64,000 nt of DNA, taken from the NCBI RefSeq assembly GCF_000224005.2, contig NZ_CP007031.1, positions 2,943,001 through 3,007,000 of the forward strand, in the 5' to 3' direction. The translations under genes and the position numbers were made by a program. The number at the start of each line of letters is the position of its first letter. Positions within the stretch are counted from its first letter, which is position 1. Of the stretch, positions 21,325 to 36,062 are shown one piece after another. This DNA is from Marichromatium purpuratum 984. Its GTDB lineage: Bacteria > Pseudomonadota > Gammaproteobacteria > Chromatiales > Chromatiaceae. A model generated the notes under the pieces. That model was not told the DNA's origin, did not search any database, and worked only from the letters and a program-made list of their open reading frames with translations.

Positions 21325-21514
21325 GTAAAGGGACACCCATTTACCGTTGACGCTCCCGCTCCCAAGGCGCTCTCCTACGCTTCCTCCAACACCTCCAGCG
21401 GAGATGCCCCATGACTCGTCCCCGCGCCTCGCTCGTCTCCTTGTCTAATACGCCTTGGTATCACGTCGTCACGCGCTGCGTGCGCCGGGCGTATCTGCGC
21501 AGTATAAAAGCAGT
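21325..21514 (+). mobile_element. RAYT element copy A (left end, promoter and first 29 codons only)
   Basis: It begins with the perfect hairpin GTAAAGGGACACCCATTTAC (21325-21344), then the built-in promoter region and the transposase start at 21411 (MTRPRASLVSLSNTPWYHVV). Similarity to full copies stops at about 21498 and is followed by CAGTATAAAAG twice (21500-21521), running into the next hairpin. The promoter spacer has a small extra insertion. It cannot encode an active protein. Confidence 0.8.
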
Positions 21515-21541
21515 ATAAAAGGACACCCACTTACCGTTGAA
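21515..21541 (+). repeat. Mini-copy of the RAYT left end (hairpin only)
   Basis: A hairpin variant ending CACCCACTTAC followed by only CGTTGA of the promoter; it is then interrupted directly by the next hairpin at 21542. It is the shortest left-anchored copy in the array, about 25 bp. Confidence 0.75.
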
Positions 21542-21819
21542 ATAAAGGGACACCCATTTACCGTTGACGCTCCCAAGGCGCTCTCCTACGCTTCTCTCAA
21601 GATCCCCAGCGGAGATGCCCCATGACCCGTCCCCGCGCCGTGCTCGTCTCCTTGTCCGATACGCCCTGGTATCACGTCGTCACGCGGTGCGTGCGCCGGG
21701 CGTATCTCTGCGGCTTCGATCGGCTGACGGGGCGTAGTTTCGAGCATCGGCGCGGGTGGGTGGAGTTGCGGTTGCGTCAGCTCGCCGGGGTGTTCGCGAT
21801 CGATGTGGCGGCCTACGGG
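21542..21819 (+). mobile_element. RAYT element copy B (truncated after about 65 codons)
   Basis: Hairpin 21542-21561, promoter, and a transposase start at 21622 ([20 protein letters not shown]). The reading frame matches full copies to VFAIDVAAY at about 21817, just before the HVH catalytic motif, then runs into the hairpin of copy C. The upstream half of the HUH domain alone is not functional. Confidence 0.82.
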
Positions 21820-21841
21820 GTAAAAGGACACCCACTTACCG

Positions 21842-21870
21842 TTGACGCTCCCAAGGCGCTCTCCTACGCT
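21842..21870 (+). promoter_or_regulatory. Promoter carried inside every RAYT left end (shown for copy C)
   Basis: TTGACG, a 17-bp spacer and TACGCT follow the hairpin by 2 bp. The -35 box matches the consensus at five of six positions; the -10 box is weaker. The same arrangement recurs in copies B, D, E, F and G, so each transposition of the left end also moves a promoter reading outward to the right. Confidence 0.65.
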
Positions 21871-21899
21871 TCTCTCAACACCTCCAGCGGAGATGCCCC

Positions 21900-23096
21900 A
21901 TGACTCGTCCCCGCGCCTCGCTCGTCTCCTTGTCCGATACGCCCTGGTATCACGTCGTCACGCGCTGCGTGCGCCGGGCGTATCTGTGTGGCTTCGATCG
22001 GTTGACCGGGCGGAGTTTCGAGCATCGACGCGGGTGGGTGGAGTTGCGGCTACGGCAGCTCGCCGGGGTGTTCGCGATCGATGTGGCGGCCTATGCGGTG
22101 ATGAGCAATCACGTGCATCTGGTAGTGCGGGTGGATGCCGATCGGGCGGCGGGGTGGTCGGATGATGAGGTGCTGCGGCGCTGGCGGTGTCTGTTCCGCG
22201 GGCCTGTGGTGGTGGAGCGGTTCTTGTCGCCGGCGACGCGGGCGGGGATGACCGAGGCGGAGCTGGATGGGGTCGCGGGGTTGGTCGCGATCTATCGGGC
22301 GCGGCTGGCGGATCTCTCGTGGTTCATGCGGGTGTTGAACGAGTCGATCGCGCGGGCGGCGAACCGGGAGGACGGGGTGCGGGGACGGTTCTGGGAGGGA
22401 CGCTTCCGTTCGCAGGCGATCCTCGACGAGACGGCGCTGTTGGCGGTGATGGCCTATGTCGATCTCAACCCGATTCGGGCGGGGATTGCGGAGGCGCCGG
22501 AGGAGAGTGCGCATACCGGGATTGCGGCACGGATCGCCGCCTTGCGTGCGGGCGATGAGGGTACGGCGATCGGGCAGCACCTCGACGTGGCGTACCGCCC
22601 GAATGTCGGGCCGGAGACATCACCAGAGATCTCTCCCGATTCGCAACGACCGATTCCCTACCAGCGCAAGACACCAGCCAGCCACGCACCCACACCGCCC
22701 GAACCCGAGAACGACGCCTCACCGGACGCCCGCAGCACCAACCTCTGGGAAGCGGCCCTCAACCGCCTCCCCCCTGCCCCACTACTACCCTTCGGCAACC
22801 CCGCCGAGGTCCCGGCGGCGATCCCCTTCACCTTCGGCGACTATCTGACCCTGGTCGACTCGCTCGGTCGCGCCCTGCATCCACGCAAGCGCGGGGCGAT
22901 CCCGGCGGAGCTGCCCGACATCCTCACCCGGCTCGGAATCGCGCCGGAGCGCTTCGTCGAGCACGCGGGCTTCCTGCTCAAGGGGTTCGGTGCCGCGATC
23001 GGTGCGCCAGAGCGACTGACCGCACTCGCCGCACAGCGCGAGTGTCGTTATCTGCGGGGATTGCGGCGCGCCCGACTGTTGTTCTCGGCTGCTTGA
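21900..23096 (+). CDS. REP-associated tyrosine transposase (RAYT), copy C, full length
   Basis: A 398-residue HUH-superfamily transposase. The HUH motif is SNHVHLVV (about residue 62-69). The following helical part contains NESIARAANREDGVRGRFWEGRFRSQAI and YVDLNPIRAGI, whose Tyr is the candidate nucleophile. A variable Pro-rich linker (about 225-295) leads to a C-terminal module with DYLTLVDSLGRALHPRKRGAIPAELPDIL and ERFVEHAGFLLKGFGAAIGAPERL. RAYTs nick and join single-stranded DNA at short hairpins. AGCGGAG precedes ATG. The linker is nearly identical to copy F but different from copy G. Confidence 0.9.
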   Translation: MTRPRASLVSLSDTPWYHVVTRCVRRAYLCGFDRLTGRSFEHRRGWVELRLRQLAGVFAIDVAAYAVMSNHVHLVVRVDADRAAGWSDDEVLRRWRCLFRGPVVVERFLSPATRAGMTEAELDGVAGLVAIYRARLADLSWFMRVLNESIARAANREDGVRGRFWEGRFRSQAILDETALLAVMAYVDLNPIRAGIAEAPEESAHTGIAARIAALRAGDEGTAIGQHLDVAYRPNVGPETSPEISPDSQRPIPYQRKTPASHAPTPPEPENDASPDARSTNLWEAALNRLPPAPLLPFGNPAEVPAAIPFTFGDYLTLVDSLGRALHPRKRGAIPAELPDILTRLGIAPERFVEHAGFLLKGFGAAIGAPERLTALAAQRECRYLRGLRRARLLFSAA

Positions 23097-23184
23097 AGGA
23101 AGGTCACCCCAGCGTCTCAGGGAAGACTCGTAGCGGACCGTCTTCCGCTCAAGGCCGGTATCATTCGATGGGGAACGCGCCCGT

Positions 23185-23418
23185 TCAGCCCGCGTGACCG
23201 AGGTAGCCCTCGATCATGGGCGTCCATTCCGGGCTCTGGATCATGCGCAGAATCCACCGATTGACGGGCTCGCGTAGCTCGGTCTCCGGCGGAAGCGCGA
23301 TGCCGTAATCCTGCCGCAGCAGAATGCCCGGCAGCACACGGAGTTCACCGGCATGCTCCGAGCTGACCAGGTGTCTCAGGATAGGCAGGTCATAGACGAC
23401 GGCATCGGCCCGCCCGGC
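23185..23418 (-). pseudogene. 3' fragment of the glutamate-receptor-like channel gene
   Basis: The minus strand encodes the last about 78 residues of the protein at 27750-28847, nearly identical (AVVYDLPILRHLVSSEHAGELRVLPGILLRQ at its start). The upstream part is absent: the frame passes into AAGTAAA-type stutter sequence and a hairpin. It is a passenger of RAYT copy C and has no start or membrane part. Confidence 0.88.
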
Positions 23419-23464
23419 CAAGTAAACACAAGTAAAAAACACAAGTAAAAAGACACCCATTTAT
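23419..23464 (+). repeat. Stuttered RAYT hairpin junction
   Basis: Three successive starts of the same sequence occur: CAAGTAAACA, CAAGTAAAAAACA, then CAAGTAAAAAGACACCCATTTAT, the last being a complete though degenerate hairpin (23445-23464). Only the third continues. It joins a broken host gene on the left to an IS701-like fragment on the right. Confidence 0.7.
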
Positions 23465-23612
23465 CAGAGCTGCTGACGACGGCGCCGCGCAAGAACGGTT
23501 GGCAGTTGGCCGAGATATTAGGCGAGCGGCGTCCGGACGGGGTGCAGCAACTGCTCAACATGGCACGCTGGAACGCCGAGGCAGCGAGCTAGGTGCTGAA
23601 CGCCATAACGTC
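23465..23612 (+). pseudogene. Degenerate fragment of the IS701-like transposase
   Basis: The plus strand reads LLTTAPRKNGWQLAEILGERRPDGVQQLL and ARWNAEAAS before an in-frame stop. This matches an internal N-terminal part of the transposase at 28999-30159 with several substitutions. Both ends are missing. From 23613 to 23833 I see no gene, apart from possible control DNA of the next module. Confidence 0.82.
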
Positions 23613-23833: not shown

Positions 23834-24136
23834 ATGAAATCCATCCGTGTCGAGCGCGCCCTCAAGAAGCTGGGCGCCGACATCCGCGATGCACGGCGGC
23901 GCCGGCGCATCAGTACCGAGCTGATGGCCGAGCGCATGGGCGTTTCGCGCGGAACGCTCAACCGCCTCGAAGCTGGCAATCCAAACGTCGCGATCAGCGC
24001 CTGGGCCTCGGCCCTGATGATTCTCGGTAAGCTCGATGCGCTCGCGGAGCTGATCGACCGGACGAAAGACCCGCTCGGGCTGGATCTCCTCGAGGAGCAG
24101 TTGCCGCAGCGCATTCGCGGAGGCCGGGTGCGGTGA
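23834..24136 (+). CDS. hipB: HipB-like Xre-family antitoxin/regulator
   Basis: A 100-residue protein with a helix-turn-helix (ADIRDARRRRRISTELMAERMGVSRGTLNRLEAG) of the Xre/HipB type. Its TGA overlaps the GTG start of the HipA-like gene (GTGA), the usual coupling of hipBA. In HipBA modules the antitoxin binds operator DNA and neutralises the HipA kinase. Here the partner is truncated, so the antitoxin may be an orphan. AAGGT precedes ATG at useful spacing. Confidence 0.85.
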   Translation: MKSIRVERALKKLGADIRDARRRRRISTELMAERMGVSRGTLNRLEAGNPNVAISAWASALMILGKLDALAELIDRTKDPLGLDLLEEQLPQRIRGGRVR

Positions 24137-24876
24137 GCACGTCCCTGGTTGTCACTTTGGATTGGCTGGGTGAGCGTCTGACGGTCGGCCAGCTCGATAT
24201 CTTCACCAGCCAGCGGGGAACCGAGCGCTATCAGTTCACCTATGATCGAGACTGGTGCCGGACGGGCTTCGCCATCGATCCCGACTTGGACCTCTTGCCA
24301 GGGATGCCCTTTCAGGCGAGCAAGCTGTGGGGCGCCTTCCAGGACATCGCCCCCGACCGCTGGGGACGGCTCGTCCAGGACCGGGTTTTCGACCACTACC
24401 TGAGCGAAAGCGATTACCTCCTGGGGGTCTCCGATCACATGCGGATGGGTGCCTTGCGATTGAGTCGCGCGGAGGCTCCCGGAGAATTCCTAGCCCTAAC
24501 CACGAACGTTCCGAAGCTGGTCCATCTACGGGCACTGGAAGCGGCGATCGCACGCCTGGAACAAGGCGTACCGACCGGTGCCGACCTCGCGCTCCTCGCC
24601 CAGCCGGGCTCATCCCTCGGCGGCGCCCATCCCAAGGCGGCGATCGAGGACAAGGGCAAGCTCTATATCGCCAAATTTCAATCCCGGCTCGATACCGAGC
24701 GGGTAGGGGCCTGGGAGGCGACTATGCTGGATCTCGCGGGAGCAGCGGGCCTGCGCGTGGCGAAGCATCGATTGCTCAACGCGAGCGGTGAGCGACCTGT
24801 GCTGTTGGTGGAACGGTTTGATCGACAACAAGGAGGAAGGGTTCCGTTCGCCTCGGCCATGACCCTGGCTGCATAG
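24133..24876 (+). pseudogene. hipA: Truncated HipA-like toxin kinase
   Basis: 247 residues corresponding to the N-terminal and early kinase part of HipA: VGQLDIFTSQRGTERYQFTYDRDW, then LPGMPFQASKLWGAFQDIAPDRWGR, the Gly-rich loop SSLGGAHPKAAI, and LLVERFDRQQGGRVPFASAMTL. The protein ends at a TAG created at the RAYT hairpin (24875-24894). The catalytic loop and DFG-like metal-binding region, which follow in intact HipA (about 410-440 residues), are lost, so kinase activity is unlikely. Start is GTG 24133. Confidence 0.85.
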
Positions 24877-25221
24877 AAAGGGACACCCACTTACCGTTGA
24901 CGCTCTCGAGGCCCTCTCCTACGCTTCCTCCAACACCCCCAGCGGAGATGCCCCATGACTCGTCCCCGCGCCGTGCTCGTCTCCTTGTCCGATACGCCTT
25001 GGTATCACGTCGTCACGCGGTGCGTGCGCCGGGCGTATCTCTGCGGCTTCGATCGGCTGACGGGGCGTAGTTTCGAGCATCGGCGCGGGTGGGTGGAGTT
25101 GCGGTTGCGTCAGCTCGCGGGGATGTTCGCGATCGATGTCGCGGCCTATGCGGTGATGAGCAATCACGTGCATCTGGTGGTGCGGGTCGATGCCAATCGG
25201 GCGGCGGGGTGGTCGGAAGAA
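24875..25221 (+). mobile_element. RAYT element copy D (truncated after HUH motif)
   Basis: Hairpin variant 24875-24894 directly at the hipA break, promoter, and a transposase start at 24955. The frame runs through [22 protein letters not shown] to about 25217 and then enters the next hairpin. The HUH motif is present but the catalytic-Tyr helix is missing. Confidence 0.82.
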
Positions 25222-25410
25222 ATAAAGGGACACCCACTTACCGTTGACGCCCCCAAGGCGCTCTCCTACGCTTCTCCCAACACCCCCAGCGGAGATGCCC
25301 CATGACTCGTCCCCGCGCCGCGCTCGTCTCCTTGTCCGATACGCCCTGGTATCACGTCGTCACGCGTTGCGTGCGCCGGGCGTATCTCTGCGGCTTCGAT
25401 CGGGACGGAA
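25222..25410 (+). mobile_element. RAYT element copy E (truncated after about 34 codons)
   Basis: Hairpin 25222-25241, promoter, and transposase start at 25301 ([20 protein letters not shown]). Similarity ends at GFDR near 25402 and a perfect hairpin begins at 25411. Non-coding in practice. Confidence 0.82.
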
Positions 25411-26410
25411 GTAAAGGGACACCCATTTACCGTTGACGCTCCCAAGGCGCTCTCCTACGCTTCATCCAACACCTCCAGCGGAGATGCCCCATGACCCGTC
25501 CCCGCGCCTCGCTCGTCTCCTTGTCCGATACGCCCTGGTATCACCTCGTCACGCGCTGCGTGCGACGCGCCTATCTCTGCGGCTTCGATCGGTTGACCGG
25601 GCGGAGTTTCGAGCATCGACGCGGCTGGGTGGAGTTGCGGTTGCGTCAGCTCGCCGGGGTGTTCGCGATCGATGTGGCGGCCTATGCAGTGATGAGCAAT
25701 CACGTGCATCTGGTGGTGCGGGTGGATGCCGATCGGGCGGCGGGGTGGTCGGATGATGAGGTGCTGCGGCGCTGGCGGTGTCTGTTCCGCGGGCCTGTGG
25801 TGGTGGAGCGGTTCTTGTCGCCGGCGACGCGGGCGGGGATGACCGAGGCGGAGCTGGATGGGGTCGCGGGGTTGGTCGCGATCTATCGGGCGCGGCTGGC
25901 GGATCTCTCGTGGTTCATGCGGGTGTTGAACGAGTCGATCGCGCGGGCGGCGAACCGGGAGGACGGGGTGCGGGGACGGTTCTGGGAGGGGCGCTTTCGC
26001 TCGCAGGCGATCCTCGACGAGACGGCGCTGTTGGCGGTGATGGCCTATGTCGATCTCAACCCGATCCGCGCCGGGATCGCGGAGACGCCGGAGGAGAGTG
26101 CGCATACCGGGATTGCGGCGCGGATCGCCGCCTTGCGTGCGGGCGATGAGGGTACGGCGATCGGGCAGCACCTCGACGTGGCGTACCGCCCGAATGTCGG
26201 GCCGGAGACATCACCAGAGATCTCTCCCGATTCGCAACGACCGATTCCCCACCAGCGCAAGACACCAGCCAGCCACGCACCCACACCACCCGAACCCGAG
26301 AACGACGCCTCACCGAACGTCCGCAGCACCAACCTCTGGGAAGCGGCCCTCAACCGCCTCCCCCCTGCCCCACTACTCCCCTTCGGCAACCCCGCCGAGG
26401 TCCCGGCGGC
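25411..26410 (+). mobile_element. RAYT element copy F (3'-truncated)
   Basis: It begins with the perfect hairpin GTAAAGGGACACCCATTTAC (25411-25430) and its promoter. The transposase gene 25491-26417 keeps both catalytic regions but stops at NPAEVPAAG, losing the last about 90 residues. The break coincides with a 19-bp duplicated junction (26408-26445). Confidence 0.85.
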
Positions 26411-26417
26411 GGGGTAA
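25491..26417 (+). pseudogene. RAYT transposase copy F, missing the C-terminal module
   Basis: 308 residues nearly identical to copy C up to residue 307, including [21 protein letters not shown] and YVDLNPIRAGI. The stop is formed by the GGGTAA of the following hairpin. The HUH domain could still fold; whether the lost C-terminal KRG module is needed is unknown. Copy F shares the copy C linker, so these two are sister copies. Confidence 0.82.
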
Positions 26418-26445
26418 AAGGACACCGGCGGGGTAAAAGGACACC
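26408..26445 (+). repeat. 19-bp exact tandem duplication at a RAYT junction
   Basis: GGCGGGGTAAAAGGACACC occurs at 26408-26426 and again at 26427-26445. It consists of the last bases of the truncated copy F plus the first part of the hairpin. Only the second unit continues as a whole hairpin (26433-26452). Confidence 0.85.
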
Positions 26446-27661
26446 CACTTACCGTTGACGCTCCCAAGGCGCTCTCCTACGCTTCTCTCAACACCTCCAG
26501 CGGAGATGCCCCATGACTCGTCCCCGCGCCTCGCTCGTCTCCTTGTCCGATACGCCCTGGTATCACGTCGTCACGCGTTGCGTACGCCGGGCGTATCTCT
26601 GTGGCTTCGATCGACTGACCGGACGGAGTTTCGAGCATCGACGCGGCTGGGTGGAGCTGCGGCTACGGCAGCTCGCCGGGGTGTTCGCGATCGATGTGGC
26701 GGCCTATGCGGTGATGAGCAATCACGTGCATCTGGTGGTGCGGGTGGATGCCGATCGGGCGGCGGGGTGGTCGGATGCCGAGGTGTTGCGGCGCTGGCGG
26801 TGTCTGTTCCGGGGACCGGTGGTGGTGGAGCGGTTTCTGTCGCCTGCAACGCGGGCAGAGATGACTGAGACGGAGCTGGATGGGGTCGCGGGCTTGGTCG
26901 AGACTTACCGGGCGCGGCTGGCGGATCTGTCGTGGTTCATGCGGGTGTTGAACGAGTCGATCGCGCGGGCGGCGAATCGGGAGGATGGGGTGCGGGGGCG
27001 GTTCTGGGAGGGACGCTTTCGCTCGCAGGCGATCCTCGATGAGACGGCGCTGTTGGCGGTGATGGCCTATGTCGATCTCAACCCGATTCGGGCGGGGATC
27101 GCGGAGACGCCGGAGGGGAGTGCGCATACCGGGATCGCGGCGCGGATCGCCGACTTGCGCGCGAACGAAGGTGACACGGCAGGACGATCGTTCGCAGTCA
27201 TAGAGCGATCGACACCTGAGGTTGGCGAGGCCCCGCCAACGGCGTGCACCGCCGCAGCGCCCGAGACCAACCACGCCGACAGCTCACCAGATGCCCGCAG
27301 CACTCACCTCTGGGAGACTGTCCTCGATCGCCTGCCCCCTGCCCCACTACTGCCCTTCGGCAACCCCGCCGAGGTCCCTGCAGCAATCCCCTTCACCTTC
27401 GGCGACTATCTGACCCTCGTCGACTCGCTCGGCCGCGCCCTGCATCCGCGCAAGCGCGGGGCGATCCCGGCGGAGCTGCCCGAGATTCTCACCCGGCTCG
27501 GCATCGCGCCGGAGCGCTTCGTCGAGCACGCCGGTTTCCTGCTCAAGGGGTTCGGTGCCGCGATCGGTGCGCCAGAGCGACTGACCGCACTCGCCGCACA
27601 GCGCGAGTGTCGTTATCTGCGGGGATTGCGGCGCGCCCGGCTGTTGTTCTCGGCCGCTTGA
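26433..27661 (+). mobile_element. RAYT element copy G, full length
   Basis: Hairpin 26433-26452, promoter, and a complete transposase gene (26513-27661). Beyond its stop lies the convergent glutamate-receptor-like gene, which is intact here, so this is the best candidate for the resident locus whose flank was copied with copy C. No matching right-end hairpin is seen between 27662 and 27749. Confidence 0.82.
26513..27661 (+). CDS. REP-associated tyrosine transposase (RAYT), copy G, full length
   Basis: 382 residues, identical in plan to copy C: HUH motif SNHVHLVV, helix with GRFWEGRFRSQAI, candidate Tyr in YVDLNPIRAGI, linker, and C-terminal KRGAIPAELPEIL module. The linker (about residues 220-280) differs in length and sequence from copies C and F, whereas the rest is nearly identical, which suggests recombination or faster linker drift. 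It carries its own promoter and AGCGGAG ribosome site. With copy C it is the only complete gene of the family here and could act on all the truncated copies. Confidence 0.9.
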   Translation: MTRPRASLVSLSDTPWYHVVTRCVRRAYLCGFDRLTGRSFEHRRGWVELRLRQLAGVFAIDVAAYAVMSNHVHLVVRVDADRAAGWSDAEVLRRWRCLFRGPVVVERFLSPATRAEMTETELDGVAGLVETYRARLADLSWFMRVLNESIARAANREDGVRGRFWEGRFRSQAILDETALLAVMAYVDLNPIRAGIAETPEGSAHTGIAARIADLRANEGDTAGRSFAVIERSTPEVGEAPPTACTAAAPETNHADSSPDARSTHLWETVLDRLPPAPLLPFGNPAEVPAAIPFTFGDYLTLVDSLGRALHPRKRGAIPAELPEILTRLGIAPERFVEHAGFLLKGFGAAIGAPERLTALAAQRECRYLRGLRRARLLFSAA

Positions 27662-27749
27662 AGGAAGGTCACCCCAGCGTCTCAGGGAAGACTCGCAGCG
27701 GACCGTCTTCCGCTCAAGGCCGGTATCATTCGATGGGGAACGCGCCCGT

Positions 27750-28847
27750 TCAGCCCGCGTGACCGAGGTAGCCCTCGATCATGGGTGTCCATTCCGGGCT
27801 CTGGATCATGCGCAGAATCCACCGGTTGACGGTCTCGCGTAGCTCGGTCTCCGGCGGAAGCGCGATGCCGTAATCCTGCCGCAGCAGAATGCCCGGCAGC
27901 ACACGGAGTTCACCGGCATGCTCCGAGCTGACCAGGTGTCTCAGGATGGGCAGGTCATAGACGACGGCATCCGCCTGCCCGGCGGCGAGCGCGTCCAGTG
28001 CCTCGGAGACATCCGCAACCGATCTGTAGCGCACCAGCTTCTGGTCGAGGAAACGGGCGCTGGTGCTGTCCTCGGCCGTCACCACCCGCTTGCCGTAGAG
28101 GTCGCTGAGCCCGCTCACGTTCTGCCCCAGCTCGCCCACGGTCAGCGAGCTTGCAATGGCTGCTGTGAAGCTGGAGACGACCACCACACTGGTGAACATC
28201 CAGACCAGTCCGATCAGCCGCCCGGCGAAGGTCACGGGGGCCTTGTCGCCATAGCCGACGGTGGTCATGGTGACGGCGGACCACCAGATGCCCGAGCCGA
28301 TCCCCTTGGCCGGTTTGCCGGAGAACTGTTCGTTGCGGCGACGCTCGGCGAGCCAGACCAGGGCGCCGAGCAAGGTGAGGACACCCAGCAAGGCCGCCAA
28401 GGACTGCAAAAAGGCACCCGAAGCGACGCGCCTGAGCGCGGAGAACCAGGTCAGCTCGGGGCGCTGCGGGACCGCCACCCCGAGCCCGGAGGTGAAGAAG
28501 GGATGCGTGAAGTCGACCCGCTGCTCGCGCTCGGCGGTGATGGTCAGGGCGGCGGCGGCCGCATCGACCTCTCCAGCGGCAACCGCATCCAACATCTCGT
28601 CGAGTCCCATTTCCTTGAACTGGACCCGGAACCCTTCCTCGTCGGCGATACGCCGGATCAGCTCGATGGTGATGCCATCCCAGCTCTTCTCCCGCTTGAT
28701 GGCGAAGGGCGGCGCATCGCGCGTGGCGATGACGAGTTCGCGCTCGCCCGACGGCTCGTCGGCCCTGCCCTCTGCTGGCGTCATGAGCGACAACAACACG
28801 CTCAAGGCAATCAAGATCAGCGGTGATTGACGCCCTACGCTCTTCAT
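27750..28847 (-). CDS. GluR0-like glutamate-receptor channel (periplasmic binding lobes plus K+-type pore)
   Basis: A 365-residue membrane protein. Residues 1-29 form a signal peptide. Lobe 1 of a family-3 binding domain (about 36-130) is followed by TM1 (about 147-167), a pore loop with TMTTVGYGDKAP (selectivity filter TVGYGD at 196-201) and TM2 (about 208-233). TM2 ends with SFTAAIASSLTVG, resembling the SYTANLAAFLT motif of ionotropic glutamate receptors. Lobe 2 follows. This is the architecture of bacterial GluR0, a ligand-gated K+ channel. ATG 28847 has AGGAG 8 bp upstream. An IS begins only about 80 bp upstream and could affect its promoter. Confidence 0.88.
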   Translation of the reverse strand: MKSVGRQSPLILIALSVLLSLMTPAEGRADEPSGERELVIATRDAPPFAIKREKSWDGITIELIRRIADEEGFRVQFKEMGLDEMLDAVAAGEVDAAAAALTITAEREQRVDFTHPFFTSGLGVAVPQRPELTWFSALRRVASGAFLQSLAALLGVLTLLGALVWLAERRRNEQFSGKPAKGIGSGIWWSAVTMTTVGYGDKAPVTFAGRLIGLVWMFTSVVVVSSFTAAIASSLTVGELGQNVSGLSDLYGKRVVTAEDSTSARFLDQKLVRYRSVADVSEALDALAAGQADAVVYDLPILRHLVSSEHAGELRVLPGILLRQDYGIALPPETELRETVNRWILRMIQSPEWTPMIEGYLGHAG

Positions 28848-28929
28848 GGCGGATACTCCTCGCACGCCTGTCTCGTCCGCCGCGAACCGGCCATGCGCCA
28901 GCGGTGCAGCTATCAAACAGCAGCCATAC

Positions 28930-30335
28930 TACTACTACTACAGCCGCATATTTTTTGTGTTGTGATATGTGGACTCAACGGCTTGGTTTTCAAACAACAT
29001 GAAGTACAGCGAGGTCTCTGGCTGGGAGACGGAACTGGACAGGATCCATCAGCGCCTGGCGGCGTGTTTTCGTCGTCCTGAGCCGCGCGCCCGAGCGCGG
29101 GGTTATCTGCAAGGGCTGCTGACGACAGTGCCACGCAAGAACGGTTGGCAGCTGGCCGAAACCTTGGGCGAACGGCGCCCGGACGGGGTGCAGCGCCTGC
29201 TCAACACGGCACGCTGGGACGCCGAGGCGGCGCGCGAGGTGCTGCGTGCCTATGTCGTCGAGGCGCTGGGCGACGCCGAGGCGGTGCTGATCGTCGATGA
29301 GACCGGTTTCTTGAAGAAGGGCACGCACTCGGTGGGGGTGCAGCGCCAGTACAGCGGCACGGCGGGCCGGGTCGAGAACAGTCAGATCGGGGTGTTTCTG
29401 TGTTACGCCAGCCGGCACGGCGCGGCCTTCATCGATCGGGCGCTGTACCTGCCCAAATGTTGGGCGAATGACCCCGCACGCTGCGCCGAGGCCGGCGTCC
29501 CGGAGCAGGCACGCCGCTTCCAGACCAAACCAGCCCTGGCGCGTACGATGCTCGAGCGCGCACTCGATGCCGGGGTACCTTGTGGCTGGGTGACGGGCGA
29601 TGCCGTCTACGGTAAGGATCGCAAGCTGCGCCTGTGGCTCGAGGCGCGCCAACAGCCCTTCGTGCTCGCCGTGGCGGGCAATGAACCGGTGTGGTTCGAT
29701 GGCCCGCAGACCCATCGTGTCGCGGCACTGGCCAAGGCGCTGCCAGAGACGGCCTGGCAGCGCCACGCCGTCGGCGCCGGGAGCAAGGGCGCGCGCACCT
29801 TCGAGTGGGCCTGGGTGCCGCTGTGGCGCCTGCAGCTCAGCGCCGAGGAGCGCGCCTGGGGGCATTGGCTGGTGGTGCGGCGCAACTGCAACCGCCCCGA
29901 GGAGCGGGCCTACTACATCGCCTTCGCGCCCCGCGCCGAGGCCACACTCGAGCGCCTGGCCAAGGTCGCCGGGCAGCGCTGGGCGATCGAGGTCGGCTTC
30001 GAGCTGGCCAAGCAGCAGTGTGGGCTCGACGAGTATGAGGTGCGCCGCTGGCCGGCTTGGCATCGCCATATCACCCTTGCGCTGCTGGCCCATGCCTGCC
30101 TCGTCGTGCTGCAACGACGGGCGAAAAAGGGGGCGCTGTCGCCGGGCGGATCGCACTGACCGCCCCTGAGATCCGGCACCTGCTCGAGGCGCTGTTGTGG
30201 CGCGAACGCGCCCCGCCTGATGCTGTCATCGCCTGGTCGGATTGGCGACGACGACATCAGGCGCGGGCCAGGGTCTGTCATTATCGAGCGCGAGGGGCTG
30301 GGCCGCCATAATGATGTGCGGCTGTAGTAGTAACA
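28930..30335 (+). mobile_element. IS701-like insertion sequence
   Basis: The ends form inverted repeats: the left end near 28930-28950 reads TACTACTACAGCCGCATA and the right end near 30315-30335 reads TGTGCGGCTGTAGTAGTAACA, which is its reverse complement apart from a few bases. The transposase gene lies between them with about 175 bp of non-coding DNA after it. A partial relative lies at 23465-23612. Exact ends and target duplication were not determined. Confidence 0.8.
28999..30159 (+). CDS. IS701-type DDE transposase
   Basis: A 386-residue transposase with the family's signature: AVLIVDETGFLKKGTHSVGVQRQYSGTAGR holds the first catalytic Asp, GVPCGWVTGDAVYGKD the second, and RWAIEVGFELAKQQCGLDEYEVR the Glu. 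ATG 28999 was chosen because it starts the conserved region; an in-frame GTG at 28969 is possible. Reading frame and inverted repeats are intact, so the element may be active. It inserted upstream of the glutamate-receptor-like gene, pointing away from it. Confidence 0.9.
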   Translation: MKYSEVSGWETELDRIHQRLAACFRRPEPRARARGYLQGLLTTVPRKNGWQLAETLGERRPDGVQRLLNTARWDAEAAREVLRAYVVEALGDAEAVLIVDETGFLKKGTHSVGVQRQYSGTAGRVENSQIGVFLCYASRHGAAFIDRALYLPKCWANDPARCAEAGVPEQARRFQTKPALARTMLERALDAGVPCGWVTGDAVYGKDRKLRLWLEARQQPFVLAVAGNEPVWFDGPQTHRVAALAKALPETAWQRHAVGAGSKGARTFEWAWVPLWRLQLSAEERAWGHWLVVRRNCNRPEERAYYIAFAPRAEATLERLAKVAGQRWAIEVGFELAKQQCGLDEYEVRRWPAWHRHITLALLAHACLVVLQRRAKKGALSPGGSH

Positions 30336-33742: not shown

Positions 33743-33804
33743 TTAAAGGACACCCATTTACCTCCAAATTAAGGGACACCCATTTACCAGGGACACCCAT
33801 TTAC
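33743..33804 (+). repeat. Cluster of three RAYT-type hairpins
   Basis: Motifs at 33743-33761, 33768-33787 and 33789-33804 are repeated head to tail, each GGACACCCATTTACC. The left junction is stuttered (CGAAATTAA twice) and the right side continues with a partial CATTTACC (33810-33817). No RAYT gene follows. Instead a truncated plasmid gene begins. Confidence 0.82.
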
Positions 33805-36002: not shown

Positions 36003-36062
36003 ATTAAGGGACACCCATTTACCTCGGAGTACCGAAAGGACCGAAAAGGGACACCCATTTAC
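36003..36062 (+). repeat. Pair of RAYT-type hairpins at an IS break
   Basis: Hairpins at 36003-36022 and 36043-36062, both with GGGACACCCATTTAC. Stutters include GAAATT twice before the first and CCGAAAGGA/CCGAAAAGG before the second. TTTACCT is repeated after it. They join the cut IS5 gene to RAYT-tail DNA. Confidence 0.82.

Follow-up and report, generated by a model that had tools for sequence, protein, structure and literature searches.

The 325 bp that follow a complete RAYT gene (copy C) in Marichromatium purpuratum 984 probably mark where a left-end-anchored duplication stopped on its right side, the element itself having a fixed left end and no detectable right end. Copy C belongs to an array of complete and truncated units within the 64,000-nt stretch of DNA analysed here (NZ_CP007031.1, positions 2,943,001 to 3,007,000; hereafter the window). 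The features of this array are as follows, in window coordinates.

21327–21505, plus strand: copy A, a left-end-anchored stub in which the element is cut after about 175 nt, beside a left-end stutter
From about 21505: the left-end stutter beside copy A, GCAGTATAAAA twice
21540–21821, plus strand: copy B, a left-end-anchored stub of about 280 nt that directly joins the left end of C
21816–23096, plus strand: copy C, a complete subclass 2.3 TnpA_Y1 unit with a 398-aa ORF at 21900–23096
23094–23418, no strand assigned: duplicated flank (spacer plus the final 78 channel-gene codons, the latter on the minus strand), 97.8% identical to 27659–27983
23420–23463, plus strand: three tandem left-end stubs at the break, 10 + 13 + 21 nt (AAGTAAACAC / AAGTAAAAAACAC / AAGTAAAAAGACACCCATTTA)
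23466–23598, plus strand: decayed IS701 transposase fragment, 86% identical to 29112–29244 and to other genomic copies
23834–24872, plus strand: hipB-like gene and hipA-like gene, cut by the left end of copy D
24873–25217, plus strand: copy D, a left-anchored stub
25220–25408, plus strand: copy E, a left-anchored stub and remnant of the resident element, 99.5% identical to the start of the single M. gracile copy
25409–26411, plus strand: copy F, a left-anchored stub of about 1000 nt, the nearest relative of the body of C
26412–26428, plus strand: left-end stutter G′ (GGGTAAAAGGACACC)
26429–27661, plus strand: copy G, a complete unit with a 382-aa ORF at 26513–27661
27750–28916, minus strand: intact channel gene (ligand-gated channel and periplasmic-binding domains), the source of the duplicated 78 codons

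The duplicated flank

As the initial annotation had recognized, the 325 bp after copy C are a second copy of the DNA after copy G. The segments 23094–23418 and 27659–27983 differ by seven substitutions in 325 aligned positions, with no gaps, and the match stops exactly at 23418. One substitution falls in the spacer (1/89) and six in the channel-gene portion (6/233), a piece of 78 codons that was duplicated in one block with the RAYT tail. A whole-genome search found the 325-bp stretch at just these two places. In M. gracile DSM 203 the channel gene is single-copy and adjoins one RAYT, which makes the 325-bp duplication lineage-specific. The 78 captured codons come without a start codon and are presumably inert. 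‘Gene capture’, the term first applied to them, describes the outcome fairly; the process that the data support is left-end-anchored duplication by an element lacking a detectable right end, not read-through past a normal end by a copy of G.

Relationship of copies C, F and G

Counted separately, the divergence of the flank does not exceed that of the gene (7/325 in the flank against 52/671 in the 5′ coding part). Along their length, C and G are identical for the first 78 nt, differ at 52/671 positions in the 5′ coding part, cannot be aligned in the middle, and differ at 20/199 and 7/183 positions in the 3′ coding part and at 7/325 in the flank. Divergence is thus 7.8–10% across most of the gene versus 2.2% in the flank, and the difference between gene (52/671) and flank (7/325) is significant (Fisher P = 0.0003). 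This identity profile, with its unalignable middle, rules out C as a direct copy of G; C is instead paralogous to F. From the body of F it differs at 22/671, 2/141 and 3/105 positions, 27/917 in total (2.9%), a value that does not differ from that of the C–G flank (7/325; P = 0.56). Because the C–F gene divergence matches the C–G flank divergence and the C–G gene divergence does not, C with its flank is a paralogue of F with its flank. It resembles F plus flank as they stood before the arrival of G, which later cut F at about 26411. C is itself a mosaic, with a G-like left part of about 300 nt, an F-like body and a G-like tail. Copy G, in turn, has a stretch of 180 nt in its middle that is identical to the M. 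gracile copy, and E matches the beginning of that copy at 99.5%; remains of the old resident are thus spread across the array.

These mosaics (C, F and G), and the many RAYT copies that supply homology for exchange, are what one would look for had RAYT and flank arisen by an ordinary segmental duplication, through replication slippage or unequal RAYT–RAYT exchange, with a left end interrupting at 23419 later; Ectothiorhodospira haloalkaliphila, too, has repeats made of tail plus flank. Homologous exchange nonetheless leaves unexplained both why, in different genera, left edges fall together on the left end and why 8–12-nt stutters are placed exactly there, and we judge this account improbable. 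The region is repeat-rich, which might raise the suspicion of an assembly artefact, but that is scarcely credible given that C and G are 2–10% different along their length, that the genome is one contig with 99.96% completeness, and that the same pattern is seen in independent assemblies.

The break at 23418

The right end had been described as having no hairpin or repeat. Three left-end repeats in fact stand directly after 23418: AAGTAAACAC (23420–23429), AAGTAAAAAACAC (23430–23442) and AAGTAAAAAGACACCCATTTA (23443–23463), all of them copies of the RAYT left end, the sequence with which each copy of the array opens. With up to two mismatches allowed, AAARRGACACCCAYTTA has 14 matches in the window, one of them at 23447–23463, where shuffles gave an expectation of 0. 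Folding of the break stub returned no stable fold, and what is present is a left-end repeat rather than a demonstrated hairpin. With these stubs to the right of 23418, a bare break is rejected; they are a weaker, direct-repeat form of the hairpin or inverted repeat that the initial annotation had named as contrary evidence.

Left and right edges in Marichromatium

The geometry of these units is a fixed left edge and a variable right edge. Their joints carry left ends, their bodies are mosaic, and among orthologues the right flanks are collinear but the left flanks unrelated. We tallied 17 right-truncated copies from three Marichromatium genomes. Fourteen meet the next left end within 0–16 nt and one more at 39 nt (15/17), the 39-nt gap itself containing a mini-stub; the two exceptions (066a and 078) comprise one gap of 934 nt and one copy without a following left end. 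Neither the right-flank comparison nor a search for inverted left-end cores found a conserved right end, and complete copies at non-orthologous loci have nothing in common past the stop codon. In orthologous pairs the right flanks are collinear and the left sides differ. At the locus under study, M. gracile has one RAYT copy and a 50-nt stub.

At another locus the states before and after such an event can be compared. The order in M. bheemlicum is hipBA, then RAYT from position 547 to its end, then the flank; in M. gracile the same RAYT ends at 617, left-end stubs come next, and a complete RAYT then leads into that same flank. The new left end was thus joined inside the resident RAYT at 617, without a second tail. 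In both M. gracile and M. bheemlicum the hipBA segment itself (23834–24872 in the window) is found at a different locus, inside RAYT sequence or abutting it; in M. bheemlicum it is inside a RAYT, with a 24-nt RAYT repeat at the joints.

Where left ends are adjacent, their first 30 nt resemble each other more than those of other pairs from the same genome do (P = 0.0002); the rest of the sequence does not. Within the present array, most neighbouring units are not each other’s nearest relatives, so that several came from other copies and not from in-place duplication. Simple in-place tandem duplication of all array stubs is rejected, as the bodies of adjacent units show no greater similarity than other pairs; it does fit the 100%-identical cases in Extensimonas, Azoarcus and Aromatoleum described below.

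The flank had originally been attributed to read-through past the normal end of the element. The normal end does not stand up, as no right end is detectable and complete copies share nothing past the stop codon; one-ended read-through itself is still a live rival. An F-type copy (not G) beside the channel gene would have been mobilized from its left end, the strand would have run 325 bp past the gene, and the product would have inserted 3 kb upstream. One-ended transposition would be expected to yield a constant left end and right ends that vary. Moreover, several array stubs have donors elsewhere, and solitary left ends are dispersed. Yet the supposed hop is local, foreign flank is found in no other copy (C alone carries flank among about 30 Marichromatium units), and the right edge abuts left-end stubs just as ordinary stubs do. 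We hold this route to be unlikely; it differs from left-end-anchored duplication mainly in where the joint forms.

IS91, ISCR and Helitron elements, which use a different group of HUH enzymes, move with one-ended read-through. They share with the units described here one fixed end, another that varies and the occasional capture of flanking gene pieces, but the Marichromatium element has no identified termination sequence and its capture is local. The edge pattern is compatible with an IS91/ISCR-like one-ended transposition from a defined initiating end. Helitron gene capture is among the subjects of PMC4778049.

Protein class and known systems

Judged by motif, length, copy number and fold, the protein belongs to TnpA_Y1 subclass 2.3 and has a RAYT-like HUH fold. 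The motifs N70 H71 H73, W165 E166 and Y186 D188 L189 N190 P191 are invariant across 25 relatives and correspond to the NHxH, WE and YVDLNP entries in the published motif table of TnpA_Y1 subclasses (PMC6006769). H73 and Y186 are 113 residues apart, in keeping with the subclass 2.3 expectation of near 110 aa. The proteins are 382–398 aa long, and the predicted model has a long helical stretch between the HuH strand and the Y helix as well as C-terminal helices. The M. purpuratum genome holds 12 N-terminal matches at 93–100%, multiple divergent copies in one genome being a mark of subclass 2.3 in Chromatiales. A Foldseek search with the model placed 4er8 (TnpA_REP) first, with probability 1.00 and a modest E of 0.01, followed by IS200, IS608 and ISDra2. 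Sequence searches of Pfam, PHROGs and PDB gave no family assignment, and the scores against the canonical RAYT model, NCBIfam NF047646, were 41.6 and 42.0 bits, under its cut-off of 80.

Subclass 2.3 as published (PMC6006769) shares the NHxH/WE/YVDLNP motifs, the spacing of about 113 residues between HuH and Y, the extra C-terminal domain and the presence of several divergent copies in Chromatiales. That survey found no REP-like flanks or end sequences, whereas here there is a conserved left end (GGACACCCA core, foot and arm) together with left-anchored duplicates. With RAYT/TnpA_REP and its REPs (PMC2817692, PMC8266576) the element has in common the HUH fold nearest to 4er8, short dispersed end-like repeats and a foot just 5′ of a palindrome-like sequence; it differs in being multi-copy, in lacking a GTAG foot, in its weak hairpin and in its NCBIfam score. 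Any one tnpA_REP is reported to be mostly single copy and to show no evidence of mobility (PMC8266576). No GTAG foot with a stable REP hairpin was found flanking the Marichromatium genes: the feet are AAGT, GGGT, AAAT and others, and the left-end fold is weak (z −1.35 to +0.4), so a stable left-end hairpin in Marichromatium is rejected.

IS200/IS605 elements (IS608, ISDra2) share the Y1 HUH fold, and the foot/arm complementarity seen here is like their guide–cleavage-site pairing. Their palindromic ends lie on both sides, however, whereas in Marichromatium no palindromic right end was detected, non-orthologous complete copies having no common right-flank sequence, and each duplicated unit includes the foot. 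The TIRYT/TIRtrons (PMC3733652) likewise have RAYT-like genes without REPs, and inverted end repeats resembling theirs occur in a genome of the same class (G277). To the right of the Marichromatium copies no inverted left-end core was found. Among the matches listed by a literature search with the core sequence, no paper dealt with this element.

The left end and its duplications in other genera

The Marichromatium left end consists of a foot of about 4–10 nt, then GGACACCCA, then a 3′ arm with partial complementarity to the foot. Nearly all of the relatives examined have the core upstream; at 61 loci outside Marichromatium it stands, with at most one mismatch, 40–115 nt before the ATG. At these 61 loci the complementarity of foot and 3′ arm exceeded all 2000 shuffles, and a foot stutter of at least 8 nt was present at 21 of the 61, compared with 16 of 1740 control positions; both tests include partly related loci and A-rich composition, neither effect being removed.

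Left-anchored duplications occur in some of these other genera. Direct duplications with the left edge at the left end, and with varying points at which they stop, are 100% identical in Extensimonas (56 and 289 nt), Azoarcus (538 nt) and Aromatoleum (50 nt), and one of 150 nt in Comamonas is 97% identical. Overall, such self-duplication was seen at roughly a dozen of about 40 loci examined. Many loci of relatives showed no duplication, the relatives in G277 have terminal inverted repeats, and locus L221 has right-anchored repeats; left-anchored behaviour is thus common but not universal. In G277, three loci (L128, L129 and L133) carry the inverted end repeats, and two gene-truncated copies retain the right repeat. 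At L221 and on the L181/L186 contig, in an Oceanospirillaceae MAG and in E. haloalkaliphila, subclass 2.3 genes adjoin right-anchored or tail-plus-flank repeats.

A proposed route for left-end-anchored duplication

In left-end-anchored duplication, each new joint would fix the left end to arbitrary DNA at its left, and the duplicated unit would begin at the left end and finish where the copied strand stopped. Stops would have fallen after 5–20 nt (stutters), inside the gene (stubs) and, once, 325 bp into the channel gene (copy C); the right edge of nearly every unit is the next left end. Several observations weigh against this account: C alone carries flank, most array neighbours are not nearest relatives, the left-end fold is weak in Marichromatium, and some relatives have inverted or right-anchored repeats or no duplication at all. 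The transposase may cut at the 5′ side of the foot and remain bound to the 5′ phosphate of the left end, which could then be passed to a free 3′-OH, for example that of a nascent strand, to give a product of the form (left end ... x)(left end ...). The nascent strand would have been copied from the left end to x, usually a point near the left end or in the gene; with a resident copy downstream, the right side might be resolved by homology. We infer this chemistry of cleavage and strand transfer on the model of TnpA_REP, which forms a 5′-phosphotyrosine that is attacked by a free 3′-OH (PMC8266576).

More broadly, we tentatively suggest that an HUH transposase subclass without a working right end could act as a generator of left-end-anchored duplications in several beta- and gammaproteobacterial lineages, rejoining its left end to free 3′ ends and so writing stutters, truncated genes and occasional pieces of neighbouring genes upstream of itself. 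The conserved left end and the one-sided duplication signature make a defined DNA substrate available, along with a genetic read-out, and left-anchored duplication would account for gene fragments copied beside such genes without a second transposon end.

Distribution of left-end cores

In the M. purpuratum genome 27 left-end cores are in forward orientation and one in reverse, nearly all of them at 1.89–3.52 Mb, with dnaA at about 1.3 kb. Orientation was head-on to replication at seven of eight loci, which is not significant (P = 0.07, with the position of the terminus assumed). Solitary cores in the window, at 33744–33803 and 36005–36061, lie inside and at the right-hand boundary of some 5.4 kb of DNA (roughly 30.7–36.08 kb) that M. 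gracile lacks at this place.
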